Positions 18,148-42,054 of a stretch of 64,000 nt of DNA are shown here, one piece after another. The stretch spans positions 1 through 64,000 of IMG/VR virus record IMGVR_UViG_3300004276_000003. One strand, 5' to 3'. The notes under the pieces are model-generated. The model did no database searches. It was not told the origin of the DNA and saw only the letters and a program-made list of their open reading frames with translations. The position numbers and the translations under genes were made by a program. The DNA comes from a virus. Positions within the stretch are counted from its first letter, which is position 1. Every line of letters begins with the position of its first letter.

Positions 18148-19659
18148 CTACACGGTGTATTTCTTGAGGCTCTTGAGGCCGGTGATGACGTCCTCAAGTG
18201 CGAACAGCGCACGGACCGCTGCGGTCTTGGGGATGGACTGCAGGCCGACCTGCGCCGCGAGGACTACTCCCGCCAGCTTCGTGGACGCATCCTCGAGCTG
18301 GGGCAGGAACTCCACGAAGGTGTCCACGTTCTCGGGGTTCAGGAAGTTGAGCGCGAGGACAGCATCCACGGACGCGGTGTCCACCATGGCGGAGGCCCGC
18401 TTGTCAAAGGAGATGGCGCTGATCTCCTTGATCAGGTTGACCCGCTTGGGGATCTGCACGTCGAGCATGTCCACCGCGGCTTCCTTCGCCGCCTCGACCT
18501 GGTACTCATCCCGACTCGAGAGCGGCTGGAGCCCGAAGAGGCGAACCGCCTCTCCCGATGCTGCGGCCTTCTCGAAGATCGCAGTGGTGAGATTCTGCGG
18601 CATGCCCGCCGCAGCCAACCAGAAGGCCCCGTCCACCCAGTCATGCTCCCCGGAGCCGAGCTTGTCGAAAACCGGACCGTCAAGCCGACAGCCGCCCTGC
18701 CAGGCGCGGATCTCCACCATCGTGGGGTACGCGTTGGCCTGCGCCGCCTTCATGAGCTCGGGCCCCGCGGTGAGCTGCACCGGGTTGTCCAGAGGGAGGA
18801 ACTTGTAGTCGGCAGGGATTGCGATCTCGGTAGGAGATGACGCGACCGGAGACGCCAGGCCCTCCGAGGGGATGATCCGGATGTCCTGTCGGTTCATGTC
18901 CTGCGCTGCGAAGTACCCACGACCCTCCACCGTGACCTTGGTGAGGATCGTGTAGGGCACGGTGGCGACGATCGCCTTCTCGTTGACCTTCACGAAGACG
19001 CCGAAGCCTCGGACTTCAGGCTTCTGGGGCAGCGGCAGGTTGTGGCTCACCCCCACGAGAGATCCCACGATCTCCGGCTGCACCGAATACTGACTCCCGT
19101 TGGTGAAGAGCTTCATCGGAGTCGGCTGACCCGCAACCGGGTCGAACAGCGTGGGGAGCACAAAACCCACCACCTGCTTCCCGGTGGAGGCGTCAGTGAC
19201 CTTGTAGATGCCGAACTGACTCACCGGAACCGCCTGCTCCTGCAGAGGGTCGGGCGCAGCCTGGACGTTGGTGACGGTAGCCGCTCCCTGCTGGTCAGCG
19301 GCCTGCAGCATCTCCGGAGGGAGCGCCTGCTGGGCCTGCTGAGCCGTCACCTTGGTCTCCTGCGGGGCCATGCCCTGTGGGGCAGCAGAGACCTTGATGA
19401 CGTAGCCGTAGCCGTCTGGCCGCACCTGTACGACATCGGTACCCGGACGGAAGGCGGAACGAGCAGCAGAGGCCAGCTTCTCCGAGCTGGTGATGGGGCG
19501 CTCAGTGAGCCGGGCGAGACAGGCCATCACCGAGGCGTTCTTCTCGATGAGCCGGCGAACCTTGGGGTCTGCGAACTCCTGGTTGAACGCGCCGAAGTCG
19601 CTCTCGTTGAGCGTACCTGAGATGGCCTGACAGAGAGACCCTCCAGAATGCGTGGTCAC
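18148..19659 (-). CDS. Large virion-type hypothetical protein
   Basis: 503 aa with EKLAS, EKAAAS and PKTAA motifs of the K-x-A set. The N-terminal 130 residues contain a Gln-rich disordered segment; the central region (about 165-300) is beta-rich with a compact domain, and the C-terminal 200 residues are helical. No recognised family. The many K-x-A sites suggest it is processed, which would make it an internal head protein. It runs between the Cys-rich 19673 gene and the 17437 gene. Confidence 0.45.
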   Translation of the reverse strand: MTTHSGGSLCQAISGTLNESDFGAFNQEFADPKVRRLIEKNASVMACLARLTERPITSSEKLASAARSAFRPGTDVVQVRPDGYGYVIKVSAAPQGMAPQETKVTAQQAQQALPPEMLQAADQQGAATVTNVQAAPDPLQEQAVPVSQFGIYKVTDASTGKQVVGFVLPTLFDPVAGQPTPMKLFTNGSQYSVQPEIVGSLVGVSHNLPLPQKPEVRGFGVFVKVNEKAIVATVPYTILTKVTVEGRGYFAAQDMNRQDIRIIPSEGLASPVASSPTEIAIPADYKFLPLDNPVQLTAGPELMKAAQANAYPTMVEIRAWQGGCRLDGPVFDKLGSGEHDWVDGAFWLAAAGMPQNLTTAIFEKAAASGEAVRLFGLQPLSSRDEYQVEAAKEAAVDMLDVQIPKRVNLIKEISAISFDKRASAMVDTASVDAVLALNFLNPENVDTFVEFLPQLEDASTKLAGVVLAAQVGLQSIPKTAAVRALFALEDVITGLKSLKKYTV

Positions 19660-21386: not shown

Positions 21387-22484
21387 CTACTCGCTCTCGA
21401 GCGTGGAGGAAAGGAAGGGCTCCCCTGTGATCTCTGATGCGGCGAGCTCGCCCAAGAAGACCGCCGTGTCCGGGGTAGGGACCCCCAGAGCGTTCAGGCC
21501 TGCTTGGATCTCAGCGAGAGACTTGGAGAGGGCGGAGAGGAAGGAACTGCCCCGGAGGACCGGCTCACTATTGCCGGTGTCTACGTCCTTGGCGATCCTG
21601 ATCTTCTCAGCAGTCTCGAGGAGCGCCGCTCCCTGGCGGGAGATCCCGAACGTCAGGCTCTCGGCTGACACCGGGGCCATCTCGTCGTCGTAGACCCGGA
21701 AGTCCACTACTCGCGCTGCGGGGTCCGGTGCGTCGGGCCTCCGCACAGGGATCGTGATGGGCAGAGGCGCGAGGGCACCTGCCGCAAGGAGTGTCACCTT
21801 GGTCGAGACATCCTTCAGAGGAGGCCGGTCTACCGGCTCATCGAGCTCCAGTCGGGTCCCCTCGGTAGCCCCCATCTGCAGGCGGAGCGTAGAGCTGGGG
21901 GAATCCACATACTGGCGTACTTGGTGCTCGTACTGAGCTGTCAGCTCTCCATCTCGATCATCTTCTCTGTGGAGGTTTCGCCAGGAAATCTTCCCGCCGA
22001 ATGTCTCCACCTCCCAGTTCTCCGCCAGGGTGAGTACCTGGTTCTGCTGGGGGTTGAAGATGGTCCGAGCCAGCGGAGTGCTGCGGATCTCTACGATGCC
22101 CCCACGCCGGATCACCACCCCGTTCTGATCTCGAGAGAGCGCGGCGATATCCCCCGGGTTCAAGTAGGGGCGACCGGAATGGAAAGAGCCCGCTTTGCGC
22201 GCATCCTCTGTCGTCGGATCCATGGTGTACGCGTACCCGACGAGGAACTTCTGCGACCCGTCTGACGGTACGGCCACGTACACCCGAGCACCGACCTCAG
22301 GCATGGCATGGATGCCTTCCCCCAACGCGCCCATGAACAGCGATGACACCAGAACAGGAGTGAACTCCTTCGGTGGGTCATCGCCGATCACGCGGCAGAT
22401 CCAGCGGTCGGGGTCCACCTCGACCACTCGGCCGAGGTGGATCTGCGCTGAGACCGCCCGGGTTGGCGTGGCGGGACTCTCCAT
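21387..22484 (-). CDS. Baseplate hub-like protein with OB-fold
   Basis: 365 aa. Residues about 15-90 have the pattern of the gp5/VgrG-type OB-fold found at the tip of contractile tails: GRVVEVDPDRWICRVIGDD, then a PEVGARVYVAVPSDGSQKFLVGYA strand pair. The centre (about 105-190) is beta-rich with Gly turns, and the C-terminus is helical. No lysozyme domain is present, so it would be a puncture/spike or assembly-initiating protein only. It directly follows the small gene 22485 downstream of the polymerase. Confidence 0.45.
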   Translation of the reverse strand: MESPATPTRAVSAQIHLGRVVEVDPDRWICRVIGDDPPKEFTPVLVSSLFMGALGEGIHAMPEVGARVYVAVPSDGSQKFLVGYAYTMDPTTEDARKAGSFHSGRPYLNPGDIAALSRDQNGVVIRRGGIVEIRSTPLARTIFNPQQNQVLTLAENWEVETFGGKISWRNLHREDDRDGELTAQYEHQVRQYVDSPSSTLRLQMGATEGTRLELDEPVDRPPLKDVSTKVTLLAAGALAPLPITIPVRRPDAPDPAARVVDFRVYDDEMAPVSAESLTFGISRQGAALLETAEKIRIAKDVDTGNSEPVLRGSSFLSALSKSLAEIQAGLNALGVPTPDTAVFLGELAASEITGEPFLSSTLESE

Positions 22485-22943
22485 CTACTTCTGGCCACCG
22501 CCGAGGACGCGGTAGCCTCCGTAGCCGGCGGCACCCACTCCAGCAGCGCCCGCGGCACCGAGGGCTGCCTGGCCGCCGCCGGTCTGGAGGGCGCGACCAA
22601 CGTGCATCTGGGCGCGGCTCCCGAGCCACTTGAGCTGATCTCCTGCGCCCATGCCCTTGTTCATCTTCCAGCCGCCACGGACGAACTTACCCCCCTCTCG
22701 GGTGCCCCCCACCCGAGTTCCGACAGTCTTCGCTCCCTTCATGCCAGAGCGGAACAACCCCTTCCCGAACTCCTGCAGGGCCTTGATGCCCGCCTCCTTC
22801 TCCATCTGGTCGAAGGCGAGAAGGTACGGGCCCGGCATGTAGCCCTCAGAAGTGCCGTATGCGTCGATGATCGCCTCGGCGGTCTTCTCTGCGTCGAGGC
22901 GTGCGAGAGCGGCTTCGTAGGCGGCGATCTTGTTCATGGTCAT
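22485..22943 (-). CDS. Glycine-zipper protein with AAYE tag
   Basis: 152 aa. It starts with MTMNKIAAYEAALARL, a variant of the tag in the 12502 and 16985 genes, with KTAE and KEAG motifs. The middle is Gly/Lys-rich; the last 35 residues are an Ala/Gly hydrophobic segment (LGAAGAAGVGAAGYGG). Its start overlaps the end of the RNA polymerase gene by 4 bp (ATGA), so the two are translationally coupled and presumably co-expressed. Confidence 0.5.
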   Translation of the reverse strand: MTMNKIAAYEAALARLDAEKTAEAIIDAYGTSEGYMPGPYLLAFDQMEKEAGIKALQEFGKGLFRSGMKGAKTVGTRVGGTREGGKFVRGGWKMNKGMGAGDQLKWLGSRAQMHVGRALQTGGGQAALGAAGAAGVGAAGYGGYRVLGGGQK

Positions 22944-25900
22944 TTCCCGAAGAATGAGAACCTGGAGGGTGGCGAGGCCGGGGCCTTCTTTTGGGGCGCA
23001 GGCCGCGAGACAGGAAGTGGCTTGGGGGCCGACTTGGGCATTGTAGCGGGGGACGGCGGAGTGAGCCCGAAGGAAGCACCGTGGGCAGCTCCGGGGATGG
23101 GGTGGCCGTGGATGTCAGAGACCCAGTTCTGGGCCCCTCCTTCCACGTACGTCTCCTTCAGCCGCTGGAAGTTGAGCCGCGCCATCCAGTCCTCTGACCC
23201 TGCCAGCGGAGCCTGGTTGAGGGGCTTGAGCGTGGGGCTGTGGGTGATCTCCTTCCTGCCTGCCCGGCGCAGGTCTTTGTTCAGGTTCTCGACCTCACTC
23301 AGAGGGAGCATCTGCCCGCGCAGGATGTTGGGGGCGTCACCGGGGTTGTTCACCTTGGTGAGATCGGTCATCGCCCGGATCACCGTCTCGATGTTGCGCC
23401 TCCGCTCGTTCCCTGTGGTCTCCACGTAGAGGCTGTTCAGGTTCTCCGTCAGGTGGTTCCGAACCGCACCCATGCTCTTTGTGATCTCGAGGATGTGGTT
23501 CGGGTTCTTCCTGCCTGTGGAGAGGGCCTCCGCCTTCTTCACTTCCGCGCCTACCCGAATCTTGGGGAGGAGCTGGTTGGTGTGCGGGACCGTGTGCTGC
23601 TTCCCAGTGATCGTCACGATCTTTCCACCCAGGGCGTCGCTCATGATCTTCTCTACGCGGCCCGACACGGTCGCCAGCGTCGCCTCACCGCGCAGCTTCT
23701 TCGGGACCTTGAGGAGGTCTTCCGCCGCGGTGAAGTAGTCTCCGACATCTCCCGCACCGCCCACACCACCTGTGTGGAACGTCCGCATCTGCATCTGGGT
23801 GATGGGCTCTCCGAGGGCGTGCCCCGCGATGACCCCGACGTTGGTGCCGACCTTGTAGTTCTTCCCGCGCTCGCTCAGCCCGTAGCAGGTGGCGCAGATC
23901 CCCTTCACTTCCTTGCAGGCCAGGGGAGACCGGACCAGCACCTTCTTGGGGCCCGAGTTCTTGAGGCGCGTGCGGAGGGGCTCAGTGATGAGCGTGCCCT
24001 TCTTGAGGGAATCGCCGCCCTTCAGGGGGACATCAGCAGCCAGGTAGCGGCCGCCAACATCTGCATCCGTCACGGGGAGGAGGGTGCCCTTCGTGGTGCC
24101 ACAGTCTTCCGACTTGATCGTCTGGTCGATGACCGTGTTGATAAGCTCCTTGGTGAGCGCGCCAGGCTTCGCCGTCGCGCTCGCGCGGTCGATGGTTCCC
24201 TTCCGCGCTCCATGCAGGGATGCCCAATACTGGGAGATGGGGAGGCCTTCTCCGAACGACTTCACGATCGGGAACGGGACCTCCTTGTTCATCGGATCTT
24301 GGACCAAGATCGGGCCCATCACGAGCTGGCCGAACTGGTTCCAGTTGCCCTTCGCCCCGCTCTGCGCCCAGTCCCACATGCGGTTGCTGTCCGTGCGGTT
24401 GTACCGAGCGGTGCCGACCTCACGGAGCTCTGTCTGCGCCTTGCGGTACAGGTTGACGATCTTCTGGTCCTTCTCCTTCTGGCTGCCGGAGCCCTTGCGG
24501 ATCTCCCGCTCCTTCACCTGGTACTTCTTGAGGCGCTCATCTCGGAGCTTGAAGCCGTCATGGAAGTCGTTGAGGCTGACGCTCGACCCGTTCTTGTAGG
24601 CCAGATTGTGCCCCAGCGTCTTCCACTGATCGATCATCGAGGCGAACTCACCTGGGTGCGCTCGAGCGACCCGCGTAGCGAGACCCTTCATCTTCCCCTT
24701 GGCCATGCGGAAGCTGGGGTCATGCAGGAGCTCGGCATCTCCCTTGAACTCCGCGGGGAGCGTCTTGTTCAGCGCCAGGCGGCCCGGGGTGGTGGGCTTC
24801 GTCATCCCCTTGACTGAGATCACATCGTAGGACTTCAGCTTGCCCTGCTTCATGAGTTTGAGGGCCTCCTCCTGCGTGAAGGATCCGGACTTCTTCTTCC
24901 CCCAGCGGGTCGCCTGGTAGATCCCCAGGACGCCATCTTGGCTCGGGGCGACCATCAGGTTGCCAGAAGTGGGCGAGAAGAGATTCTTCGAGGGGAGCAT
25001 GCCCTTCGCCTCTTCCACCGCCTTGTCTGAGATCGGGACGTACATGGCCATGGTGTCCCCATCGAAGTCAGCGTTGAAGCCTCCGACGACCAGGGGATGG
25101 ATCTTGATGGAGCGGCCCTCTACGATCTTCGGGCGGAAGGCCATCATCGAGAACATGTGAAGGGCGGGGTCCCGCTTCATGATCGCGGGACGGTCCTTCA
25201 CCACGCGGGCCAGCGCCTCGTTGGCGGCGGGGTGGTTCTTCTTGATCATCTCCCGCGCCTCTCGTGGAGTACGCGCGCGCCCCATGCGGCGCCAGAGCTC
25301 CCGGATGACGAACGGCTTGTACATCTCCATGGCCATGGAGCGGGGGACCCCGACCTCATCCAGCGGGAGGTCTGGATCTGGTGTGATCACAGAGCGACCA
25401 GAGAGATCCTGACGCTTGCCGAGTACGCCCGTCTGGAAGAACGAATATTTCGGCTGGCTGCTCGCCCCCGAAAGCTTGTCCATCAGACTCGGGAGCTGCT
25501 TGCCCTCGAGCGTCATCCCGGTTGTGCGCAGCGCCTTGACGGTCGTGTAGATCTCCGCCTGGAGCTTCTGGATGTCCCCCACCGGCAGACGCTCCTTCTC
25601 CGCGTTCTTGAGCTGCCTCACCATAGACCCGGTGATGGCGTACATCTGGTTGACGGGGTCGATGATCTGCGTGCCGTCAAAGCCGATGCTCACCTTCCGG
25701 AGCTGCGGAGGAAGCACCGGGATCACACGGTTGGTGTACGCGTCGATCGGCTTCAGCTTCAGCTTCTTCAGGGCGCGGAGATAGCGAACACGCTTGTACT
25801 CCACGTTGAGCTTGCCCTTCTTCGCATCCGTCAGGGACTTCTCGCTCTTCTTGAGCTCAGTGTCCACGTTCAACGCGCGGAGCTTCTCCTCGATGATCGT

Positions 25901-28900
25901 GAAGCCGGACTTGCGACCCTGCGCACCGGACTCGGACAGGAGCTTCCGGAACTCGGGCTTCTTCATCCGGAGCAGCAGCCGGACAGGCTCTTCGAAGACC
26001 GGGTTGGGCACGCGCATGCCCAGGTCCATGTGACTCCACTTCCGGCCGTCAAGCCCTCCGGTCTTGCCGCGGTCAAAGAGGCCGCCCCGCTCCTCTCGAG
26101 TCAGCGAGCCCTTGGCCGCGAGCGTCTTCTCTGGGAGGGTGAGCTGACCACTGCTCTGGGCAACGGCCTGGGCATCCGTCATGGGCATGAGGCTGTACTT
26201 TCCACCCTTCTCGGATGTACTCACCCCCATCGCACGGAGGTAGTGCTGGAAGTGGACCATGGAGCGGGGGACCTTCGGGGGCGGCGGGCGCTCTCCCCGC
26301 ATGATCCGCAGCCACACATCCTCGGCCTGCTCTCGGTCAGACTTGTAGGTCTGCATCTCCCGAAGGTTGTGTACAGCTCCGTGAGCCAGCATGGAGTACA
26401 GATCCAGGCCACCAATGCGCTGGCCTCCCTGCCCGACGCCAGAGCCCTGAGCTGCCTCCCCAGTGGGACGGTACTTGTACCCGAATCCACCAGCGCGAGC
26501 CGTGACCTTCTTCTCCGCCTGATGGTCCAGCTTCAGCGTGTACTGGAACCCCGTGAAGATCTGACCGAGGCTCTCCCCCGTCTCCGGATCGAAGAGCTCT
26601 TCGGTGTCCGAGAGCTTGTGCTTCTTGAGCTCGTCCTTCACGAACTGGCTGTAGTCCTTGTCCGGGTCGAAGTTCTCAACCAGGAAGGGCTTGCCCGTCT
26701 TCTTCGCGATCTTGCCCGCTGCGGTCTCGAGGACCTGTCCGACGTTCATGCGTGAGGGGATGCCCGCCGGGCTGTGGAGAACCTCGACGTGCTTCCCGCT
26801 CTTGTCCCGCGGCATCTGGTCATCGGGGAGGATCTTGGTGACGATGCCCTTGTTGCCATGTCGACCTGAGAGCTTGTCCCCGATCTCCATCGTCTGCTCA
26901 GTCCGGACGTAGACCGCCAGCTTCTTCCCGGTGTTCACCACGCGAACGACTGTGCCGCCGTACTCGTGATCCCAGATCTCAGCGGCATCGACGTAGTCCC
27001 GGATCGCCTTCTTCAGCGCGGCCTTGACTACCTGGGTCTCCTTGGTGTTGTCCTGCTTGCGCAGCTTCGCGATCAGGACATCTCCGGGCTGAACCCGGGT
27101 CCCCTTCTTGATCACGCCATTCTCATCCAGCTTCCGAAGCGCCTCAGGAGTGGCCTTGATCGCCCCAGCGTACTGCCGCCACAGCTTCCGGTTCACCACC
27201 ACGTTCGGCGTCATCTCGACTTCGACGCTGTGCAGGTGACTGGACACCAGGCTGGACGCGGCACTCTCCGAGATGACGATGCCATCCTCGAAGTTCAGGC
27301 CCTTGTACGGGATGTAGGCCACACGCAGGTTGGTACCCAGGGCCAGGGTGCCCTTGTGGGTGAAGTTGGAGTCCGCGATGACCTGGCCGCGCTTGACCTT
27401 GTCCCCCACCTCTACCAGAGGGGTGGAGTGCATCATGTGCTTCGCGCCGTTCAGCGGGTAGTGATCGTACAGGGGGTACTTCGAGGCCTTGCCGTCCGGG
27501 CCCTTCACCACGATGGCCTTCTTGGAGACAGAGGAGACCGTCCCATCCGTGACCGCTGTGATAGCGGCCATGGCGCCCACCAGGCGCTCGTAGGAGGCCT
27601 TCCCCTTCTGGACTGACTGTACCAGTGGGGCCTCCCGCTTCTGGAGCCCCACGGCCTGCTCCTGGTGCTTGGCGGCCATCATCGCACGGTTGCCGTTGTC
27701 GTTCTGGATGAACGGCACCAGGTTGGCGCTGATCGCGAAGAGGTTCCGAGCCGAGGGGAGCACGTACTGGACCTGATTCCATGGGCGCTTGGAGGTGTTG
27801 CGCTCGTCGTCGTAGACAACGACATTCGAGAACCGAGGCTTCAGGCTGTACGTGCCGTCGGCCTTCTTCGTGACCTTGACCTGGTCTGGGTAAGCGACCA
27901 CCGCGTTCTCGAGCTCGGCGGCGCTCTTCTCTTCGACCCGACGGGTCTTCACGTTGATGACCTGCGCCATCAGCCGGTGGCCCTTCTTCTTGGCGCCGAG
28001 AGGTACATGGAGGACTACGCCAGTGGCGGAGTTCTCAGGGGTCTGAAGCGGATCGAGGAGCCCGAGGTGACTCGGGTTGATCAGCTTGTCCTGCATCATG
28101 TTGACGTTGTCGCCCTTGATGCCGCCGAACTCCGCTCCGAGGATCGTGGTCTTCGTGTGGTTCGAGACGAACTGCAGGGGGTTCGTCTGGGTGGGGAGCT
28201 GTCCCGCCTTGAACTTCGACAGGATGGCCGCGCCGTACCCCACGCCAGGTGCGGGGATGATCTCCGAGATGCGATCGCGGCGATCGACGTTGTTGCGAAT
28301 CTTCCGCTGCAACGAGTAGATGTTGGCGCCCTTCGTCAGATGCTCGTGGATGAAATCCTCGGCCCCGAAGAGGCGCTTGTTCGAGAGGGACTGTCGATCG
28401 TCCTCCTTCACGCGACCCTTGCTGATCCCCACCAGCTTCGCCGCGGAGAGGAGCAGGGCCTCCCCGGAGATCTTCTCGAACTTCTTGCCCAGCGCGGACT
28501 GCATCGTGTCGGCGCTGACTTCGGCTCCCTCAAACACCTGCTTGGCGAACTGGGCAGCCTCTGCTGGGGGCGGGGGCTTGTAGTCCTGAGACTTCTTCCG
28601 GTTCTCGATCGCCTTGTGGAACCGCTGCAGGGTTCCGGGCTTTGCCGCAGCCCTGTTGGCCTCGAAGATCTTCTCTCCGAACTTGGACTTCATCTGCTCA
28701 TCGCTGATGCCCATGGCCTTGAGCACCGGGTAGATCGCGATCTTCACGGTGGACGCATCCCCGCTCTTCACGATCAGGTGCATGCGCCCGACCTTCTTCG
28801 GGTCCTTCCGCTCGATGAAGATCTTGAAGGACCCGATCTTTGACCCAGCAGCGACATTCCACTTCGCGAGGAGGTCGCCGTTGCTGGCCTCTGCGTGGTA

Positions 28901-29266
28901 GGCACCGGGGTTCAGCCGAAACACCCCATCGAACTGCCGCTCGCTGCCTGCTACGATGTAGCTGTACCGAGTGGTGATCTTGGGCAGAGTGCCGATCGTC
29001 CGGGTCTTCTCGTCCAGAACCTTCTTGGTCTCGATGTCCACCAGGCGGAACTTCGCCTTGATGTCCGGTCCCCAGGTCTTCCCCGTCAGTCGCGCGCCCG
29101 CCTGGGACTCGTAGTTGGCCGAACTGAACTTCGGCCCTTCCTCAATGACGAGAGAGAGGAGCTCCAGGCGGTGCTTCCTGCCCTCAATCGGAAAGTGAGA
29201 GGAGATCGCCTCTTTGGTCTTCTGGACCAGGGAGCGGTGGGCTGCTTCAGGGTTCAGATTGGACAC
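22940..29266 (-). CDS. Single-chain DNA-directed RNA polymerase, beta and beta' fused
   Basis: 2108 aa from GTG 29266. The N-terminal ~1050 residues follow bacterial beta: TPEN-type motif (about 395), a KRGQVIADS/LALGTNLRVAYIPYKGLNFEDGI block (about 660-700), SGRHGNKG (800-807) and GGQRIGG with LREMQTYKSD (947 onward). From about 1077 it follows beta': WSHMDLGMRVP, VIPVLPPQLR, VLGKRQDLSGRSVI, catalytic NADFDGD at 1398-1404, a zinc site of C1722, C1784, C1791 and C1794, and trigger loop GEPITQMQMRTFHTGG (MRTFHTGG from 1827). The N-terminal beta' zinc site is not visible, and no alpha, omega or sigma gene was recognised. It is shorter than bacterial beta plus beta' (about 2750). Its ~25-residue C-tail is Pro/Lys-rich. 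Placement inside the virion block suggests packaging or late use. Confidence 0.95.
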   Translation of the reverse strand: MSNLNPEAAHRSLVQKTKEAISSHFPIEGRKHRLELLSLVIEEGPKFSSANYESQAGARLTGKTWGPDIKAKFRLVDIETKKVLDEKTRTIGTLPKITTRYSYIVAGSERQFDGVFRLNPGAYHAEASNGDLLAKWNVAAGSKIGSFKIFIERKDPKKVGRMHLIVKSGDASTVKIAIYPVLKAMGISDEQMKSKFGEKIFEANRAAAKPGTLQRFHKAIENRKKSQDYKPPPPAEAAQFAKQVFEGAEVSADTMQSALGKKFEKISGEALLLSAAKLVGISKGRVKEDDRQSLSNKRLFGAEDFIHEHLTKGANIYSLQRKIRNNVDRRDRISEIIPAPGVGYGAAILSKFKAGQLPTQTNPLQFVSNHTKTTILGAEFGGIKGDNVNMMQDKLINPSHLGLLDPLQTPENSATGVVLHVPLGAKKKGHRLMAQVINVKTRRVEEKSAAELENAVVAYPDQVKVTKKADGTYSLKPRFSNVVVYDDERNTSKRPWNQVQYVLPSARNLFAISANLVPFIQNDNGNRAMMAAKHQEQAVGLQKREAPLVQSVQKGKASYERLVGAMAAITAVTDGTVSSVSKKAIVVKGPDGKASKYPLYDHYPLNGAKHMMHSTPLVEVGDKVKRGQVIADSNFTHKGTLALGTNLRVAYIPYKGLNFEDGIVISESAASSLVSSHLHSVEVEMTPNVVVNRKLWRQYAGAIKATPEALRKLDENGVIKKGTRVQPGDVLIAKLRKQDNTKETQVVKAALKKAIRDYVDAAEIWDHEYGGTVVRVVNTGKKLAVYVRTEQTMEIGDKLSGRHGNKGIVTKILPDDQMPRDKSGKHVEVLHSPAGIPSRMNVGQVLETAAGKIAKKTGKPFLVENFDPDKDYSQFVKDELKKHKLSDTEELFDPETGESLGQIFTGFQYTLKLDHQAEKKVTARAGGFGYKYRPTGEAAQGSGVGQGGQRIGGLDLYSMLAHGAVHNLREMQTYKSDREQAEDVWLRIMRGERPPPPKVPRSMVHFQHYLRAMGVSTSEKGGKYSLMPMTDAQAVAQSSGQLTLPEKTLAAKGSLTREERGGLFDRGKTGGLDGRKWSHMDLGMRVPNPVFEEPVRLLLRMKKPEFRKLLSESGAQGRKSGFTIIEEKLRALNVDTELKKSEKSLTDAKKGKLNVEYKRVRYLRALKKLKLKPIDAYTNRVIPVLPPQLRKVSIGFDGTQIIDPVNQMYAITGSMVRQLKNAEKERLPVGDIQKLQAEIYTTVKALRTTGMTLEGKQLPSLMDKLSGASSQPKYSFFQTGVLGKRQDLSGRSVITPDPDLPLDEVGVPRSMAMEMYKPFVIRELWRRMGRARTPREAREMIKKNHPAANEALARVVKDRPAIMKRDPALHMFSMMAFRPKIVEGRSIKIHPLVVGGFNADFDGDTMAMYVPISDKAVEEAKGMLPSKNLFSPTSGNLMVAPSQDGVLGIYQATRWGKKKSGSFTQEEALKLMKQGKLKSYDVISVKGMTKPTTPGRLALNKTLPAEFKGDAELLHDPSFRMAKGKMKGLATRVARAHPGEFASMIDQWKTLGHNLAYKNGSSVSLNDFHDGFKLRDERLKKYQVKEREIRKGSGSQKEKDQKIVNLYRKAQTELREVGTARYNRTDSNRMWDWAQSGAKGNWNQFGQLVMGPILVQDPMNKEVPFPIVKSFGEGLPISQYWASLHGARKGTIDRASATAKPGALTKELINTVIDQTIKSEDCGTTKGTLLPVTDADVGGRYLAADVPLKGGDSLKKGTLITEPLRTRLKNSGPKKVLVRSPLACKEVKGICATCYGLSERGKNYKVGTNVGVIAGHALGEPITQMQMRTFHTGGVGGAGDVGDYFTAAEDLLKVPKKLRGEATLATVSGRVEKIMSDALGGKIVTITGKQHTVPHTNQLLPKIRVGAEVKKAEALSTGRKNPNHILEITKSMGAVRNHLTENLNSLYVETTGNERRRNIETVIRAMTDLTKVNNPGDAPNILRGQMLPLSEVENLNKDLRRAGRKEITHSPTLKPLNQAPLAGSEDWMARLNFQRLKETYVEGGAQNWVSDIHGHPIPGAAHGASFGLTPPSPATMPKSAPKPLPVSRPAPQKKAPASPPSRFSFFGK

Positions 29267-29274
29267 CTAAATAC

Positions 29275-29325
29275 TCCACAGATCGAGGCCATAAGTATAA
29301 CAGTCGGCAAGTAGCGCCGACGCTG
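29275..29325 (-). promoter_or_regulatory. Candidate promoter/operator before the RNA polymerase gene
   Basis: On the minus strand TATACT (29299-29294) lies 28 nt before GTG 29266, which would place transcription start near 29287 and leave a short leader with GTGGAG as ribosome site. The expected -35 position (about 29317-29322) reads CGTCGG, a poor match, but it falls in a perfect inverted repeat GTCGGC-7 nt-GCCGAC (29303-29321), a possible operator. The plus-strand gene 29335 starts just across it. Confidence 0.35.
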
Positions 29326-29334
29326 GAGCAGCAC

Positions 29335-29418
29335 ATGATCAAGCAGCAGCGTACCAAGACCGATCCCGACCCCCAGCCCATCGAGCCGGAGTGGCCCGAT
29401 GATTGGGGAGGGCTCTGA
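29335..29418 (+). CDS. Very small ORF in the portal/RNAP gap
   Basis: 27 aa, Pro/Asp-rich, ATG 29335 with GGAG about 7 nt upstream; its stop is followed one base later by the ATG of the next small gene. Too short to classify; coding status rests on the ribosome site and on the tight chain of small genes here. Confidence 0.3.
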   Translation: MIKQQRTKTDPDPQPIEPEWPDDWGGL

Positions 29419-29419
29419 G

Positions 29420-29527
29420 ATGCTGACGTGGGCCTTCTGGGCGGCAGTGATTGCTGCCGCCGTGAGAACATCGTCTGACGTCTTCGAGGATCACATCGAG
29501 GACTTGGACGATGCCCAGGATGGGTAG
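29420..29527 (+). CDS. Small single-pass membrane protein
   Basis: 35 aa. A hydrophobic N-terminal segment (LTWAFWAAVIAAAV) is followed by an acidic, soluble tail rich in Asp. ATG 29420 begins one base after the stop of the previous ORF. A small membrane protein is plausible, but short ORFs of this kind can be spurious. Confidence 0.35.
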   Translation: MLTWAFWAAVIAAAVRTSSDVFEDHIEDLDDAQDG

Positions 29528-29840
29528 GAGGCCCCGGGAGAGTGTCCTTCGAGGTCGGCGTGATGCCGGCCTCGAGGGGCTTTCTCTCCGTCCTCCCGAG
29601 ATTTCTATAGCCCCTCGAACCGCAGAAGAGGACATCCTCGCAGCATACTGCCCGATCGTAGAGGGACGCTGTGGGGACATGGACTGCAAGGGCTGCCCAG
29701 AGTTGAAGGAGGAAGTACCCGATGCCCTGTGGTTGTGCTCTGCCTGCGCGGGGGCCCTACCGGCTCTCCCCTTTTGGGGCGCAGGAGAATGTGCTGGCTG
29801 CGGAGACTACTCGAGTTTCCTGCTGGCGGTGATGCCGTGA
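29511..29840 (+). CDS. Small Cys-rich protein
   Basis: 109 aa. The Arg-rich N-terminus is followed by CPIVEGRCGDMDCKGC (about 47-62), a tight set of four Cys that could bind zinc, and further C-x-x-C pairs near the C-terminus. It overlaps the previous small ORF by 17 bp in another frame, so its start is uncertain. Function unknown. Confidence 0.4.
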   Translation: MPRMGRRPRESVLRGRRDAGLEGLSLRPPEISIAPRTAEEDILAAYCPIVEGRCGDMDCKGCPELKEEVPDALWLCSACAGALPALPFWGAGECAGCGDYSSFLLAVMP

Positions 29841-30100
29841 CCCCCAGCTACTACTGTGAGTACTGCGGAGCTCACATTGTGCGGCGGGAGGCCGCCCTCT
29901 GTCTCTCCCGACACCGGATTTTCCGACGGGCCGTGCGGTGGACCGCAGAAGTAGAGACGTTCACTACGGGAGATCACGAAGTCATGTTCCATGAGGCGTG
30001 CTTCGTGGAACATGCCCCCAAGATCTTGGGGGCTCTGCTGGAAGGAATCCAGATCTCAAAGCCTCGCAAGTGGGCGATCAACCCACCGCAGTGGGATTAG
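29837..30100 (+). CDS. Zinc-ribbon-like protein
   Basis: 87 aa from GTG 29837, overlapping the preceding stop by 4 bp. Residues 6-9 read CEYC, followed by GAHIVRREAALCL; a short zinc-finger is likely. The C-terminal half is a helix and a WAINPPQWD tail. It is convergent with the portal gene, overlapping its stop by 4 bp. Function unknown. Confidence 0.45.
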   Translation: MTPSYYCEYCGAHIVRREAALCLSRHRIFRRAVRWTAEVETFTTGDHEVMFHEACFVEHAPKILGALLEGIQISKPRKWAINPPQWD

Positions 30101-32160
30101 CCGACCTGGCGTCCCGCACTGGCCTGCGGAGTTCCATTCGGAGCAGGATTCGACATCGCGTTTGTCGGATCCTGCTTCGACCCCGTCTCATTCATTAGCT
30201 GGACTACCAGCTGGTAGAGCGCGGGGTTGGAGGTCTGCATCTGCGCAAGAGACTGGAACATCGCCTCCTCACCCTGCTCAGCCTTCACGGTGCGCAGGAA
30301 TGCCGCGGCTCGCTGCGCGATGTACCGGAGGTCTACGCCTCCTCCACCGGGCTGTACCTGTGACTGCATTCCCGCCATCGCTGCCGGCATGCCCGTGGCG
30401 TTGGGGTTCTGTGCGTTCTCGTCGTACGCCGTGGCCCCTTCTGGGAGACCTGCAGTCTGCTGGGCCTGATCTCCGCCCTGCTGAGGCTGCTGTGAAGGCT
30501 GCTGTGGAGGCTGCGCGGGCTGCTGTGGGGGAGGCTGCCCCGGAGCTCCGCCCTGCATGGCCGCCTGAGCCTGCATCTGCTCCTGCTGCATCTCCATCTG
30601 TACCTTGGCCTGGGAGCGCATCTGGAGCTCCTGGGCCTTGGTCTGGTAGCGGGATCCACGCAGCTGGGCTTCGCCCTGGATGTCGGCAGAAGCCACCTGC
30701 ATCTTGCGGTTGGCCTGGAGCTGCGTCGCGATCTCGTCTTCCATGCGCTCGGTCTCGAGGTCGAAGTTCTCTCCGACCTCCTCCATGAGCCGGCGGTTGC
30801 TGATCTTCTGTGCCTGGTTGAGCTGCAGGTAGAACATGCTCCTCTGGAGATCGTCGGCCATGCGGAACTTGTCGAACCGCGCAGGGACCTTCGGCCAGTC
30901 CATGAAGGAGAAGATCTTCCCGAGGATGAACTCATTCACGAGCTCATGCCGCTGCATGTTGAAGCCCAGGAACATGTTCTCCAGGGCACGGAGAGAGGTA
31001 CTCGACCCACTCCACTGGAGGCCGCCGAAGATGAACTCTACGGGGATGCCGGCACCGGCCAGCATCTGCTCCGCGAGGAGTCGCATCTCCTGGTAGAGCA
31101 GGAGGGAGCGCCCCTGGCCGCCGATCTGCTGGAAGCCGACGTTCACCGGAAGGACAGGGATGTAGTTGTGGTCCCGCTTCCACATGTTGATCTCTTCATC
31201 AACACGCTTCTTCCAGTTCGTCAGGTTGTACGCGCCGTACGGCCCCTCGTTACCTCCCGTGCTCTGGCCCGGGAAGAGAATGCGGAGGGGGACGATGCTC
31301 TCCTGGAGGACTGCCTCGTTCGCCTTCTTCATCACCTGCAGGTAGTACGCATCCTTCAGCAGCGGGTAGATCAGGGGGGTTCCCCACCCCTGGTCCTTCT
31401 GCGCGATGGTCGGACGCTTCAGGTGGTACAGGTTGTCCTTCGAGAAGAGCAGAGACTTCCGACGCCGCGCCGCCTCGAGGAACTCGATGGGCAGCGTCTC
31501 GATGGTGTCCTTGTCCCCCAGCTTGATGTCATTGAGCACCGCACGGGGGAGCTTGAAGAAGTACTTCGTCTCCCCTGTGATCTCGTTGTGCTTGATCGTG
31601 ATGTTCTCGGGGTTCCAGCGGACCAGTTTGATCTGCCGGAAGCTCCGCATGTAGACGTCGTGCTGCTTGGCGTAGCCGACGTGCCCACACTTGCACTTCT
31701 TGAGGTAGAAACGGGAGTTGCGCCAGGTGTAGCGGAAGCGGTTCGTCTTCGCCCGGTACCGGGCCTTGCAGCTCGAGCAGATGAGGTACTTCTCGAACGG
31801 CAGGAACACCGAGACGAAGGCGTTGCCGTACACGAAGTAGTCCAGGCCCACCTCGACCTGGAACGAGCGCAGCTTGAGCTGCCCCTCGACCTTGCGTCCG
31901 AGCTTCTGGAGCTCCGGGTCCTCTGTCTCGAACACCAGAGGGGTGACCGGGTACTCGGCCATCTTGGAGCAGGCGGCGTTGATGACCGGATTCGTGAGGA
32001 AGTAGTACCGACACCACTTGTGCAGCTGGTGCTGGTTCGTCGGGAGGAACTGCTGCGCGATGTCGAAGAAGGGGGACGGGTATTGGATACCGAATCCACG
32101 GCTCCCGTCCACACTGGCGCGACGCGGATTGAACCGACTGAGCTCGCCTGAGACCGACAT
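30097..32160 (-). CDS. Portal protein
   Basis: 687 aa. The order and spacing of segments fit large-phage portals: an N-terminal region with FFDIAQQFLPTNQHQLHKWCRYYF, an early membrane-free strand area, an internal CSSC and CKCG pair (about 128-159) suggesting a zinc-binding insertion, the stem/crown region with LLAEQMLAGAGIPVEFIFGG and helices, and a long Gln/Pro-rich tail (about 525-600) that is probably flexible. The portal forms the dodecameric DNA entry vertex. It is next to the 32161 gene and, with the terminase 20 kb away, completes the packaging module. Confidence 0.75.
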   Translation of the reverse strand: MSVSGELSRFNPRRASVDGSRGFGIQYPSPFFDIAQQFLPTNQHQLHKWCRYYFLTNPVINAACSKMAEYPVTPLVFETEDPELQKLGRKVEGQLKLRSFQVEVGLDYFVYGNAFVSVFLPFEKYLICSSCKARYRAKTNRFRYTWRNSRFYLKKCKCGHVGYAKQHDVYMRSFRQIKLVRWNPENITIKHNEITGETKYFFKLPRAVLNDIKLGDKDTIETLPIEFLEAARRRKSLLFSKDNLYHLKRPTIAQKDQGWGTPLIYPLLKDAYYLQVMKKANEAVLQESIVPLRILFPGQSTGGNEGPYGAYNLTNWKKRVDEEINMWKRDHNYIPVLPVNVGFQQIGGQGRSLLLYQEMRLLAEQMLAGAGIPVEFIFGGLQWSGSSTSLRALENMFLGFNMQRHELVNEFILGKIFSFMDWPKVPARFDKFRMADDLQRSMFYLQLNQAQKISNRRLMEEVGENFDLETERMEDEIATQLQANRKMQVASADIQGEAQLRGSRYQTKAQELQMRSQAKVQMEMQQEQMQAQAAMQGGAPGQPPPQQPAQPPQQPSQQPQQGGDQAQQTAGLPEGATAYDENAQNPNATGMPAAMAGMQSQVQPGGGGVDLRYIAQRAAAFLRTVKAEQGEEAMFQSLAQMQTSNPALYQLVVQLMNETGSKQDPTNAMSNPAPNGTPQASAGRQVG

Positions 32161-35087: not shown

Positions 35088-35462
35088 ATGGGTGACTTCA
35101 CAAGCCGATATTCAACCCATACCGAGGAGAAGCCAGGGTGCTACGGAGAGGAAGACTACTACGACATCACGGATAGCACTTGCCGGGCTTGCCGGTACAA
35201 AGGAACCTGCCGGATCAAGGTCCAGGCAGGGAAATCCGGCCGGAGCAGAGATACCCCGGGGCCAAAGAAGGGGCACCCCACCAACGGGCGGTCAGTTCCG
35301 GTCCCCACAGAGGATCCTGACGAGGGGGACACCTTTGTGTCCGCGCTCACGTACAACTCGAGCCTCAACGCCGCTACCGCCATGAGCGAGACGCTGACGC
35401 AGGCTCTCAGTGGGATCCCCCGAAAGAGGTATCCCTCGTTCCGGAAGAGGAGAAAGGAGTGA
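35088..35462 (+). CDS. Small Cys-cluster protein, first gene of replication operon
   Basis: 124 aa, ATG 35088 with TTAGGAG upstream. The N-terminal 45 residues contain C-x13-C-x2-C-x5-C, a likely metal-binding cluster; the rest is basic, Pro/Ser-rich and ends in KRYPSFRKRRKE. It overlaps the helicase start by 4 bp. Position as leader gene of the replication operon is notable, but function is unknown. Confidence 0.45.
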   Translation: MGDFTSRYSTHTEEKPGCYGEEDYYDITDSTCRACRYKGTCRIKVQAGKSGRSRDTPGPKKGHPTNGRSVPVPTEDPDEGDTFVSALTYNSSLNAATAMSETLTQALSGIPRKRYPSFRKRRKE

Positions 35463-36838
35463 CAAGACTGCCTCACCTCGAGGCGGGCGTCGTATACCGG
35501 GGCAGGCACCTGTTCCTGCCCCGGTCTGCGGTGTCTTCTGGGATCCTCGAAGGTCTTCTGACCTTCGGGGCCGACCCGGAAGAGCAGCGCCGCGCCCTCA
35601 TGCGGACTCACAAGTTCCACTACCAGGTCCCGCTGTACACCCTGACGGACAAGCAGGTTGAGGAGCTTGGCTGCGAGGTGGTAGATCTGCGGCCCACTGA
35701 GTTCGACAGCATCGACCTCACCGCCAAGCCGGCATTCCAACTACGCGACAACCAAGTAGAGGCATGGGAGGACCTGAAGGCAGCGCACTCAGGCGTCCTG
35801 AATCTGGCGTGTGGCCTGGGCAAGACCGTCTTGGCGTGGAACAAGGCCGCCCATGAGAAGGTGTCCACTCTGGTGGTGAGCCCCCAGAGGGCGCACCTGG
35901 ACAACTGGTTGGGAGAGCTCGACGAGTTCTTCGACTACCGAGGGGAGACTGGCTGGATCCAGGGGAAGAAGTTCGACTACGAAGCTGGGATCTGTCTTTC
36001 GACAGTGAACATGCTGGCGCGCAGGGCGCAGACCGGGAGACTCCCTGCGGACTTCTACAGGAAGTTCGGACTGGTGATCTACGATGAGTGCCACATCATG
36101 GGCGCGGATTTCTTCTCCCAGGCGTGCGCCGTGGGGGCTGGGATGCGTCTGGGGCTGAGCGCCACGCCAGTGCGGACTGACCGGTGCGAGGGCATCTTCC
36201 TGACCAACCTGGGGCCCATCTTCCACTCCAACGTGGAGCAGGACCTCGACCCCACGGTCTACGTGCTCGACATGGGAGTGTTTTTCCGGGAGGACGAGCG
36301 AAAGGGGATGCTGGATCGGAATGGGAAGTTCAATGTGGGCCGCGCCCACAAGGTTCTGGCGCAGAACGAAGACCGCAACTCCCTCATCCAACGGCTCTTG
36401 GATGAGCTCAAGAAGCGCGGACGGATCGTCTACGCCCTCTCCCATGGCCCCGACCACCTGGAGCACCTGCACGCCCAGAACCCCGGGAGCACAGTGATCC
36501 ACGGGAAGACGAAGTCGAAGGAGCGCCTGGAACGCCTCAACGGCTCCGACTTGGTCTTCGCCTCTCTCGGGGTGGGGGCCGCGGCGTACAACCGGAAAGA
36601 CCTGGACACCCTGGTCCTGATGACCCCGTTCGCTGCCAGGTCTCACTCTGCCATCGCCTACGAGCAGAGTGTGGGCCGGGTACTGCGTGCCCTCGACGGA
36701 AAGCCGAACCCTCTTGTCTTCCTGCTACTCGATTCCTCGGTGGACACGTTCCGGGGAATGATCCACTCCCTGATCCGCAAATCCCGAGAAAAGGGCTACC
36801 GAGTCATAAGGAAGTGGAGATGGGAAGACCTACCATAA
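35459..36838 (+). CDS. Superfamily 2 DNA/RNA helicase (DECH type)
   Basis: 459 aa. Motif I CGLGKT (K122-T123), motif II DECH (209-212), motif III SAT and motif VI QSVGRVLR are all present. The arrangement resembles the UvsW/XPB-like helicases used for branch migration and replication fork remodelling. The N-terminal 100 residues before the ATPase core are phage-specific. It overlaps the preceding gene by 4 bp and is followed by the glycosylase gene. Confidence 0.85.
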   Translation: MTRLPHLEAGVVYRGRHLFLPRSAVSSGILEGLLTFGADPEEQRRALMRTHKFHYQVPLYTLTDKQVEELGCEVVDLRPTEFDSIDLTAKPAFQLRDNQVEAWEDLKAAHSGVLNLACGLGKTVLAWNKAAHEKVSTLVVSPQRAHLDNWLGELDEFFDYRGETGWIQGKKFDYEAGICLSTVNMLARRAQTGRLPADFYRKFGLVIYDECHIMGADFFSQACAVGAGMRLGLSATPVRTDRCEGIFLTNLGPIFHSNVEQDLDPTVYVLDMGVFFREDERKGMLDRNGKFNVGRAHKVLAQNEDRNSLIQRLLDELKKRGRIVYALSHGPDHLEHLHAQNPGSTVIHGKTKSKERLERLNGSDLVFASLGVGAAAYNRKDLDTLVLMTPFAARSHSAIAYEQSVGRVLRALDGKPNPLVFLLLDSSVDTFRGMIHSLIRKSREKGYRVIRKWRWEDLP

Positions 36839-36850
36839 GGAGAAAATATC

Positions 36851-37564
36851 GTGATAGGTAGTACTGCGTTGAGGGCACTCCTTGAGGAGTATTCTCGATG
36901 TGACGCCTGTGAACTCCTCTGCGAGAGTCGAGTGCAGCCAGTCTTCGGATCTGGCAGCGTCAGTGCTCGAATCCTCTACGTGGGAGAGGCCCCAGGCATC
37001 GAAGATGATGAGGCGGGGTACCCATTCGTGGGACCTGCCGGGAGACTCCTACTTCAGCTCTTCGAGAAGGCGTGGTGGGACAGTCCAGAGCTGGAAGAAG
37101 TACGCATGATCGAGGAGAACGACGCCTTCTTCGAGAATCTGCGGAACTACCTCGAGGGCCACATCTTCTTCACCAACGCGGTGATGTGCCGCCCTGAAGA
37201 CGATCGAACCCCGAGCGCGAAAGAAGTGAAGGCGTGCAGGAATCGCCTGCATCGGACCATCTACGCCATCGACCCCCTGCTCATCATCGCAGGAGGGAAG
37301 GTCGCCGCTACGACCCTCCTTGGGAAGAAGGTGGCCATCATGGACAAGCGCGGGGGACTGATGGACATCTCCATCGACTCCCCGAGCACCGGACGTCCGG
37401 TGCGGTACGCCATGCTGCCTACACTGAGCCCTGGCTTCCTCCTGCGCAAGGGAGATGGACCCCTTGTGAAAGAGGGGCGAGGCCACACCTACGAGACCAT
37501 CCGGGATTTGCGCTTTGCGCTGTCCCTCATCAGCCACCACAAGACCCTGATTGGAGGCCACTGA
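36851..37564 (+). CDS. Family-4-like uracil-DNA glycosylase
   Basis: 237 aa from GTG 36851 with AAGGAG upstream. Four cysteines C17, C20, C113 and C129 are placed as in family 4 enzymes for a [4Fe-4S] cluster. Motif 1 reads GEAPG-x-E-D...G-x-PFVGPAG (45-64), and FFTNAVMCRP (106-115) follows. The C-terminal motif normally T-x-H-P reads LPTLSPGFLLR (189-199), with L192 where the His is expected, so activity may be altered. It could repair deaminated cytosine in GC-rich phage DNA or have another role; the loss of His weakens the assignment as an active glycosylase. Confidence 0.8.
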   Translation: MIGSTALRALLEEYSRCDACELLCESRVQPVFGSGSVSARILYVGEAPGIEDDEAGYPFVGPAGRLLLQLFEKAWWDSPELEEVRMIEENDAFFENLRNYLEGHIFFTNAVMCRPEDDRTPSAKEVKACRNRLHRTIYAIDPLLIIAGGKVAATTLLGKKVAIMDKRGGLMDISIDSPSTGRPVRYAMLPTLSPGFLLRKGDGPLVKEGRGHTYETIRDLRFALSLISHHKTLIGGH

Positions 37565-38330: not shown

Positions 38331-38589
38331 CACCACCTCCATCGAGCTCGTCTCGGTGGAGGCCTCCGTCCGACAGTCCACAGTCCGCGCAGCCTACGTC
38401 GTCAACCTCACCACACCCACCTTCGAGGGAACCATCGGGGGAGGGGAGACGACGCTGGACGAGAAGCATGCAGAGCTCGTGGCGCGGCTGTTTGCGGTGG
38501 TGCGCGACATCCAGTCAGTCATCAACGAAGACCTCGGGCTGGTGGATGCGCCCCCTGAGACCCCACAGCACAACGAGGAAGAACTGTAG
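38311..38589 (+). CDS. Hypothetical protein
   Basis: 92 aa from GTG 38311, whose AAGGAG is 7 nt upstream; a TTG at 38305 is less well spaced. Beta-rich N-terminus with a Thr-rich strand set, then a helix and an acidic tail. Its stop lies directly before the DnaB-like helicase ATG. Unknown. Confidence 0.4.
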   Translation: MTSGPRSTTSIELVSVEASVRQSTVRAAYVVNLTTPTFEGTIGGGETTLDEKHAELVARLFAVVRDIQSVINEDLGLVDAPPETPQHNEEEL

Positions 38590-42045: not shown

Positions 42046-42054
42046 TTTCAACAC

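Follow-up and report, generated by a model that had tools for sequence, protein, structure and literature searches.

A single-chain beta-beta' RNA polymerase of a tailed-phage lineage, its sigma-like partner and its probable delivery in the virion

The DNA analysed here (the window) comprises positions 1 to 64,000 of the IMG/VR virus record IMGVR_UViG_3300004276_000003. At 22940-29266 it carries a single open reading frame of 2108 amino acids with a GTG start and no internal stops. The frame is on the minus strand, which the first-pass annotation had not given. That annotation had described a single-chain beta-beta' RNA polymerase (RNAP), and the frame and all the motifs named in it were found at the residues it gave: the beta motifs SGRHGNKG (residues 800-807; 26846-26869, minus strand) and GGQRIGG (947), the catalytic NADFDGD (1398-1404; 25055-25075, minus strand), the second zinc site C1722/C1784/C1791/C1794 (23885-24103, minus strand), whose cysteines are the only ones in the whole protein, and the trigger loop MRTFHTGG (1827-1834; 23765-23788, minus strand). 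The beta half (residues 1 to about 1016; 26219-29266, minus strand) and the beta' half (about 1017-2108; 22943-26218, minus strand), which ends in a proline-rich tail, match in order the Pfam domains Rpb2_6 (E = 3e-63), Rpb2_7 (under the Pfam cut-off), Rpb1_2 (7e-32), Rpb1_3 and Rpb1_5 (5e-23). These domains cover residues 575-1974 and PHROG matches cover 270-2035. With phmmer against PDB chains the protein matched bacterial beta' (E = 3e-114). When AlphaFold models were searched with Foldseek, the first four PDB matches of the beta' half were bacterial beta' subunits (TM 0.71-0.74) and the first match of the beta half was a bacterial beta subunit (TM 0.72, rmsd about 12 Å). The DxDxD motif is present in all 72 phage rows of the alignment that extend that far and the four cysteines of zinc site 2 in 55 of 58; by eye we also recognised what we take to be the clamp coiled coil, switch 2, bridge helix and trigger loop. 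Judged by its sequence, the ORF encodes a complete two-barrel DNA-dependent RNAP in which bacterial-type beta and beta' are fused.

The RNAP gene was said to lie in a virion block, and its neighbours bear this out. The first long gene upstream in the same orientation, about 830 bases away, codes for a 687-amino-acid portal homolog (30097-32160, minus strand; profile match to gp204, the portal of Salmonella phage Arash, E = 1e-85), and 65 of 68 loci have a portal homolog upstream of the RNAP and on its strand, 12 loci whose upstream DNA was too short having been dropped; in this count, as in the tree and the chain-state count below, near-identical loci are counted apart. The large terminase subunit (9842-11557, minus strand), the counterpart of Arash gp1, matches PHROG 675 (1e-58) and has GpA_ATPase as its best Pfam match, its match to PF03237 (E = 0.032) being under the cut-off. 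Homologs of Arash gp238 (21387-22484; profile 4.5e-8), gp218 (18148-19659; 1.3e-88) and gp222 (4822-6759; 1.4e-31) are also on the minus strand, and all three proteins were detected in Arash virions, according to the available part of that report (PMC10585845). The 152-amino-acid gene downstream (22485-22943, minus strand), which had been called a glycine-zipper gene, does overlap the RNAP stop by 4 bp and its product has a Gly/Ala-rich C terminus; its profile matched in 14 loci of the searched set, in which four loci occur twice. Between the RNAP and the portal homolog lie small cysteine-pair ORFs on the plus strand (29511-29840 and 29729-30100, spanning 29511-30100), with similar ones in 9 of 9 relatives. 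The major capsid family PF07068 was matched in 0 of 20 records and likewise in 0 of 14 control records, so this search was uninformative.

A putative sigma-70-family factor of 270 amino acids is encoded just beyond the window, at positions 76222-77034 of the record, and a sigma-like factor as companion of this RNAP lineage is new in the present analysis. Pfam Sigma70_r2 and Sigma70_r4 gave no matches in the window's record, and the gene surfaced only via relatives and a profile. This profile matched 16 of 20 records of phages with this RNAP (E <= 1.7e-42), the match in G012 containing one TGA; no sigma-like gene was found by it in G010, G022 and G023 (72-86 kb) or in G014 (171 kb). Sigma70_r3 scored 44.3 bits (cut-off 25.3), and region 3 was above the Pfam cut-off in all four members tested. 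Region 4 was under the cut-off in two of these four and was not reported in the window's own factor, and region 2 was seen by eye and weakly in gp10 of Arash while Pfam sees none in the window's own. A tblastn search of 50,697 phage records with two sigma members matched only Arash and the Vibrio phages D69, D181 and D148, whose RNAPs are assigned to the window's lineage (three of the four are in the tree). The gp10-type factor is the only sigma found in the window clade by the models used, whereas Arash and D69 have a second one. No alpha-subunit domain was found in 14 of 14 records, of which 13 gave a match to the control.

Records of the window clade share a bipartite promoter-like element, TAAA-N12-16-GYCATAA, of which the window holds just two. 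The first (TAAA-N16-GCCATAA; 29268-29294, plus strand) adjoins the RNAP start codon, is directed away from the RNAP and is found at the equivalent position in 9 of 11 clade records, while after the second (8940-8966, plus strand) come an SD-like GGAGG and a 129-amino-acid ORF (8991-9380, plus strand). Across the 11 clade records the element matched 32 times and its backward control twice; in the 8 records outside the discovery set the counts were 15 and 1, with 6 of the 15 at the RNAP-adjacent site. A second control pattern gave 0 matches in the 11 clade records and 10 in the other 12. In Arash the promoter-like element is GGTATAAG, which occurs 31 times where 2.6 would be expected; all but one of these sites (30 of 31) are on the minus strand, home of mostly non-structural genes, and the plus strand carries the majority of structural genes. 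In both the window clade and Arash the elements precede mostly non-structural genes. In D69, G[GT]TATAAG occurs 26 times genome-wide against a shuffle mean of 15.9 and maximum of 23, and the signal is intergenic (14 vs 1.04). No element of the window-clade type occurs in G012 and G016, the sister records with a single chain; the intergenic DNA of G016 has GGGATAAG (8 vs 0.24) and that of G012 has ATAAGAA (6 vs 0.32). Against a second-order null, ATAAG ranks 5, 8, 17 and 32 of 1024 in four phages and 99 and 836 of 1024 in G001 and G003, which weakens the idea of a single ATAAG core common to these phages.

The first-pass annotation had suggested that the enzyme could be virion-packaged or late-acting, and evidence on this comes from Arash, whose Gp206 is the RNAP ortholog. 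In the available part of the Arash report (PMC10585845), Gp206 stands at the top of all virion-detected proteins in unique peptides (128; next 79) and in spectra (3516; next 1952), Gp216 was detected in particles with 40 unique peptides and 1210 spectra, and the sigma Gp10 with 24 and 467 and a coverage of 100%, while the second sigma, Gp196, is absent from the virion table as given there. Unique peptides per residue calculated from this table are 0.084 and 0.066 for the RNAP and 0.103 for the sigma, compared with 0.055 for the portal and 0.098 for the capsid, and the ribonucleotide reductase Gp27 (0.014) and primase Gp183 (0.002) are far under RNAP and sigma alike. This per-residue comparison does not settle packaging because the RNA ligase Gp143 (14 unique peptides in 150 amino acids, 0.093) and the minus-strand Gp140 (13 in 136) score as high. 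The table of 116 proteins also includes replication and nucleotide enzymes, and the authors allow carry-over for enzymes, the RNAP among them (PMC10585845). The RNAP could be a non-virion middle or late enzyme, produced during infection for late-gene transcription, that reaches virion preparations only by carry-over, a reading with which the place of its gene within the structural block and the coverage of Gp143 would also agree. We consider it unlikely: Gp206 exceeds every other protein, capsid and portal included, in both unique peptides and spectra, and GGTATAAG lies almost wholly on the strand opposite to most structural genes. A purely late-acting enzyme is also less likely because the promoter-like elements precede mostly non-structural genes. 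Packaging of the window RNAP is the part of the earlier suggestion that is supported, by homology with Arash, and since an isolated relative has both RNAP and sigma in its particles, the window phage probably arrives in the cell with transcription machinery of its own.

The present analysis contributes the fused chain, its conservation and clade, the sigma-like gene, its co-occurrence with the RNAP and the promoter-like elements, and for these our best reading, which we hold with moderate confidence, is a virion-delivered single-chain RNAP that acts with its sigma in early transcription. The RNAP would be made late, off the structural block, and packed into the virion together with the dedicated sigma-70-family factor. 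Both would enter the cell alongside the DNA, where the sigma would contact the RNAP and guide it to the bipartite promoters before early genes, and phage transcription could thus start without host RNAP and without an alpha subunit.

It may be asked instead whether the elements are read by host RNAP, with a host or phage sigma, with the phage RNAP acting on a different set of genes. Redirection of host RNAP by phage sigmas is common, and in Arash a T precedes GGTATAAG in 18 of 31 sites, which is close to an extended -10; TGGTATAAG of Arash resembles a host extended -10. On the other hand, TATAAT is not enriched in Arash (12 observed, 34 expected), YCATAA of the window clade is unlike the sigma-70 -10, and the gp10-type sigma, the sole sigma found in the window clade by the models used, occurred in the tblastn search only in phages with an RNAP of the window's lineage. 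Host RNAP as the reader of these elements is accordingly improbable in our view, and early transcription by the virion-delivered RNAP and its sigma is preferred.

As to the origin of the RNAP, the same single ORF (2108-2126 amino acids) is uninterrupted in 11 of 11 near relatives (L001-L011) on other contigs, with 100% identity to the window RNAP in two and 70-72% in nine, and the frame break or assembly chimera against which the first-pass annotation had cautioned was not encountered. A phylogeny places the 82 phage rows (window plus 81) in one clade with support 1.0, apart from 32 bacterial rpoBC and not nested among them, and an IQ-TREE tree of 33 phage and 16 bacterial rows gave the phage clade a support of 100; both trees are limited to phages and to bacteria other than Helicobacter and Wolbachia. 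In both, the window RNAP is in the same phage clade as Arash and D69. Its mean identity to 16 bacteria is 28%, and a profile of the phage enzymes run against genomes found at least 80 loci with best-segment identities of just 25-33%. The beta' zinc ribbon is absent from all 82 phage rows: at its site, GGLFD..TGG..G.KWSH (26012-26086, minus strand), the window has a block of 18 residues with no cysteine, and the block is 18 residues long in 81 of the 82 rows and 24 in one, whereas all 34 bacterial and other-phage rows have 50 residues there. A separate capture of host rpoB-rpoC, which had been proposed from the closeness of the motifs to bacterial consensus, is thus not supported as a recent event, and the near-consensus motifs would fit less divergence and not a different origin. 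Although those motifs and the fusion of rpoB and rpoC in Helicobacter and Wolbachia could be cited in its favour, a recent capture, or host genes chimerically assembled into a phage contig, is rejected as extremely improbable given the separate clade with 28% identity, the ribbon loss, the low identities of the scanned loci and the single frame in every near relative.

The RNAP of this lineage exists as one, two or three chains; L061, in which two overlapping frames have an intein, was set aside uncalled in this count together with L062, L063, L073, L075 and five first-chain-only loci. Since the first chain extends about 100 residues into beta' in 8 of 8 three-chain forms examined, these forms appear to have arisen by fission of a fused ancestor. 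The phage beta' break was also compared with the cyanobacterial rpoC1/rpoC2 break, and homology of the two was rejected: the phage break precedes the TTPGRL motif, whereas the break follows it in the three split genomes examined, two of them cyanobacterial. More tentatively than the early-transcription reading, we propose a minimal virus-borne holoenzyme of one RNAP chain and one sigma, which would be virion-delivered, use a private promoter and need no host alpha, omega or sigma, and whose ancestor would already have been a beta-beta' fusion that was later broken into two or three chains. If true, this would reverse the usual split-to-fused story, and the order of fusion and fission would become testable, as would the entry of such a large enzyme into the cell. 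To our knowledge, the window RNAP with its sigma would be the simplest sigma-dependent cellular-type RNAP known: near-canonical, in one chain, served by a sigma and promoter of its own, and obtainable by expressing only two proteins. By contrast, the two-barrel virion RNAPs of phages in the cited literature, so far as the available text goes, are single chains of high divergence or assemblies of four or five polypeptides that lack sigma. Usable starting points are Arash, which has been isolated, and Vibrio phages of the D69 type, whose records look complete.

A search of open-licence PMC papers for a fused phage RNAP or a virion sigma listed none. The RNAPs of Arash (gp206/gp216), D69, D181 and D148 are 29-30% identical to that of the window over matched regions, and these phages have the gp10-type sigma as in the window lineage. 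Arash and D69 also have the portal homolog directly before the RNAP, but their RNAP is split near residue 1487 of the window protein and the trigger loop is altered (LGTKHDAK / LSTKHDAK). The first-pass list of comparisons (phiKZ-like phages, YonO, crAss-like gp66 and bacterial fusions) held neither the sigma-like partner nor what appears, by description, to be the nearest described group, the multi-subunit RNAP-encoding Caudovirales (mReC; Weinheimer & Aylward 2020, PMC7481178). Like the window, mReC are tailed phages whose RNAP is alignable to cellular RNAP, has the NADxDGD motif, forms one clade outside cells and is encoded near virion hallmarks (PMC7481178). The window protein has profile-detectable beta/beta' in a protein of at least 800 amino acids with NADxDGD (Pfam being used in place of COG models), groups apart from the bacterial rows and has TerL and the portal homolog beside it. 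Further marks of mReC phages are a major capsid protein of PF07068 and a TerL of PF03237 / VOG01069, for which the outcomes are those given above. However, the available mReC text speaks of beta and beta' subunits, reserves 'fused' for crAss phages and makes no mention of a dedicated sigma, promoter or virion location (PMC7481178). Single-chain phage RNAPs are described in crAss-like phages (gp66) and P23-45 (gp96/gp64), gp96 being a virion enzyme joined to the tape-measure protein, and many such families align only near the DxDxD motif, according to the part of the source available (PMC10770324). The window RNAP matches cellular RNAP profiles over most of its length, which by their descriptions sets it apart from crAss gp66 and YonO, and no tape-measure family is among its Pfam and PHROG matches. 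Nor is it nested in bacteria with the ribbon kept, as a bacterial fused rpoBC would be, for the bacterial set used. The phiKZ/AR9-like RNAPs resemble our reading of the window in being virion-packaged two-barrel enzymes of large phages, but their core consists of at least four or five polypeptides without alpha, sigma or omega homologs, as described in the available parts of these papers (PMC7598289, PMC7824862, PMC13282480), whereas the window lineage has one chain and a sigma-like partner.

The single frame with beta and beta' motifs that the first-pass annotation had described is present as an ORF of 2108 aa on the minus strand (22940-29266), with all of the motifs at the positions it gave. 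The virus record has a total of 79,794 bases, 64 kb of which make up the window. The order of Pfam domains is Rpb2 domains 6-7 and then Rpb1 domains 2, 3, and 5, and the beta' N terminus lies close behind beta, the residues from about 1024 aligning to the N-terminal part of bacterial rpoC. The first scan found a single ORF of 2108-2126 aa in eleven IMG/VR loci. The beta' zinc ribbon is absent: this block is 18 residues (24 in one) without any cysteine in 82 of 82 phage rows, and 50 residues in all 34 bacterial and other-phage rows. The window RNAP has no cysteines other than the four of the second zinc site. AlphaFold models of its beta' and beta halves, built from 26 sequences each, had a mean pLDDT of 75 and 77 and a pTM of 0.44 and 0.70, and the best PDB matches of these predicted structures were bacterial beta' and bacterial beta, respectively; the domain arrangement of the beta' model is unreliable because its pTM is low.

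The profile scan for relatives returned 118, of which 80 were kept. A FastTree phylogeny was built from 116 sequences: 82 phage sequences, 32 bacterial rpoBC, and two sequences from other RNAP phages; two of the bacterial rpoBC came from phage-collection records that look bacterial. All 82 phage rows fall into a single clade with support of 1.0. IQ-TREE (LG+G4, 51 rows, short search) agreed, with support of 100 for the phage stem, 99 for the large clade A that holds the window, and 100 for clade B with Salmonella phage Arash and Vibrio phage D69. The proposed separate capture of host rpoB-rpoC is therefore not upheld, since the window RNAP lies inside the phage clade with no bacterium within it. 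Averaged over 16 bacteria, the window RNAP shares 28.1% identity with them, against 24.6-25.9% for five members of clade B; measured from the base of the phage clade, its path is 1.19 and theirs are 1.28-1.52. On these sequence comparisons we read its consensus-like look as likely to reflect somewhat slower change and not a closer donor. The RNAPs of Cobetia phage Carin-5 and Yersinia phage YerA41 stand apart from the phage clade and retain the zinc ribbon, and their genes are near replication genes. Among annotated phages the best matches were Vibrio phages D69, D181, and D148 and Salmonella phage Arash; the remaining matches, only part of which are in the tree, were to rpoBC of bacterial appearance, to fragments, or to other families of RNAP. 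Several phage-collection records, for example H8-H11, carry ordinary bacterial rpoB-rpoC, adjoining rplJ and rplL in H10, and are probably host contigs.

Chain states were scored at 83 loci. RNAP is one chain at 38 loci, while at 12 beta and the N-terminal part of beta' are in one chain followed by a separate beta'C, and two more of this type are also broken near residue 521. At 21 loci the enzyme is additionally broken near residue 1113, and for six of these the fetched DNA includes the beta'C chain; the other ten loci were truncated, had the first chain alone, or were unclear. Close examination of eight three-chain members showed that the first chain continues through the beta' N-terminal segment and then stops. 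Judged from sequence, the best reading of the three-chain forms is that a fused ancestor was split, because a beta gene with no fusion in its past would not be expected to stop after the beta' N-terminal segment. This argument is independent of the tree root, and the nested position of the three-chain clade in the FastTree phylogeny is concordant with it. Three one-chain loci (L064, L065, and L097) have inserts with homing-endonuclease domains or, below cut-off, intein-splicing domains, and the RNAP of L061 has an Intein_splicing match above cut-off with overlapping frames after its intein. The intein-like inserts of these four loci lie within the best-conserved RNAP motifs or close to them, their sites being after HGNKG and NADFDGD, at the trigger loop, and near residue 411. 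In D181 the RNAP gene is broken near residue 521 by a homing-endonuclease insert, and the D69 protein is uninterrupted there (L012, L021, L103).

The position inside a virion block was borne out: the 687-aa gene before the window RNAP matches the Arash portal gp204, and other genes in the block match Arash gp218, gp222, gp238, and TerL in profile searches. Of 68 loci with sufficient DNA, 65 have a portal homolog upstream of RNAP on the same strand, 45 of them within 1.5 kb and 20 at 2-9 kb. Tandem MS of Arash particles (PMC10585845) ranks the RNAP chain Gp206 top in spectra (3516) and unique peptides (128), with 1210 and 40 for the RNAP chain Gp216, 1148 and 38 for the helicase Gp217, and 467 and 24 for the sigma Gp10; a second sigma, gp196, is missing from its protein table of particles. 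When we normalised these peptide counts per residue, RNAP and sigma grouped with portal and capsid and above RNR and primase. Carry-over into the particles may nevertheless explain them, as equally high per-residue values were reached by the RNA ligase Gp143 and by Gp140, a minus-strand protein. The suggestion of virion packaging draws support from the Arash particles, subject to carry-over, and packing in the window clade would be an extension from this relative. Locus L017 (record G008) encodes, beside beta'C, a homolog (6e-98) of the Arash 'DNA helicase' gp217 that is at least 926 aa long. Arash gp217 was detected in virions (PMC10585845), and this protein is possibly a third component of an injected transcription kit.

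Weak region-4 matches in relatives led to a sigma-like family of about 270-277 aa, the member in the window's record being at record positions 76222-77034 (Sigma70_r3, 44.3 bits against a cut-off of 25.3). By profile the family is in 16 of 20 RNAP-phage records. In tblastn of two members against 50,697 phage records, matches were found in Arash, D69, D181, and D148 only, the four phages that we assign to the window RNAP lineage. No other sigma was detected in the window clade with the models applied, and an alpha-subunit domain was found in none of the 14 records searched.

Promoter-like elements were found in Arash, in D69, and in the window's clade. Arash has 31 sites of GGTATAAG against 2.6 expected, 30 of them on the minus strand and the sole plus-strand site at the end of gp8; most sites among those listed are shortly upstream of an ATG. 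D69 has 14 intergenic sites of GTTATAAG against 1.04 expected. The window-clade element, TAAA-N12-16-GYCATAA, had 32 matches in 11 records against two for the backward pattern, 15 against one in the eight records outside the discovery set (the RNAP-adjacent site accounting for six of these), and three against one in the other 12 records; a scrambled control pattern had none in the 11 and ten in the other 12. Upstream of [GC]YCATAA, 53 of 62 A-tetramer counts fell at 17-21 bases (54 sites, 10-39 bases scanned). The window has elements at 8940-8966 and 29268-29294. By element places and locus coordinates, an element abuts the RNAP start and is directed away from RNAP in nine of 11 records, facing short opposite-strand ORFs that are rich in cysteine. 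The window itself has small cysteine-pair ORFs (29295-30100, plus strand, opposite to RNAP and portal) downstream of such an element, and similar opposite-strand ORFs are in nine of nine relatives. No match to the complete bipartite element turned up in a plus-strand block (35459-48556) whose genes encode a helicase, uracil-DNA glycosylase, DnaB-like helicase, DNA polymerase A, UvsX/RecA, and a Cas4-like exonuclease. In records G012 and G016, TTGACA (16 against 64 and 20 against 82) and TATAAT (0 against 2.7 and 0 against 13) occur less often than predicted by a first-order model, which may come from codon use.

We infer that these elements are promoters read by the window RNAP with its sigma. 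On the likeliest reading, the two proteins would be synthesised late and packed into the virion, and after injection into the cell would act at once on early promoters. From this analysis the proposal draws on gene structure, the clade, co-occurrence, and motif statistics, and from PMC10585845 on RNAP and sigma in particles of one relative, Arash; late synthesis, packing in the window clade, ejection, the partnership of sigma and RNAP, and promoter use are what we propose from these.

Our searches of the open-licence PMC literature turned up no account of a near-canonical phage RNAP in one chain with its own virion sigma and promoter. Phage RNAPs of this lineage and single-chain phage RNAPs are already known. 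The nearest described group is mReC (PMC7481178), the multi-subunit RNAP-encoding Caudovirales lineage, and the window RNAP is probably a member, as judged by the published description of mReC. Its chain, estimated from length at about 235 kDa, would have to pass the tail, the same question that is posed by the phiKZ-type enzymes (PMC7598289).
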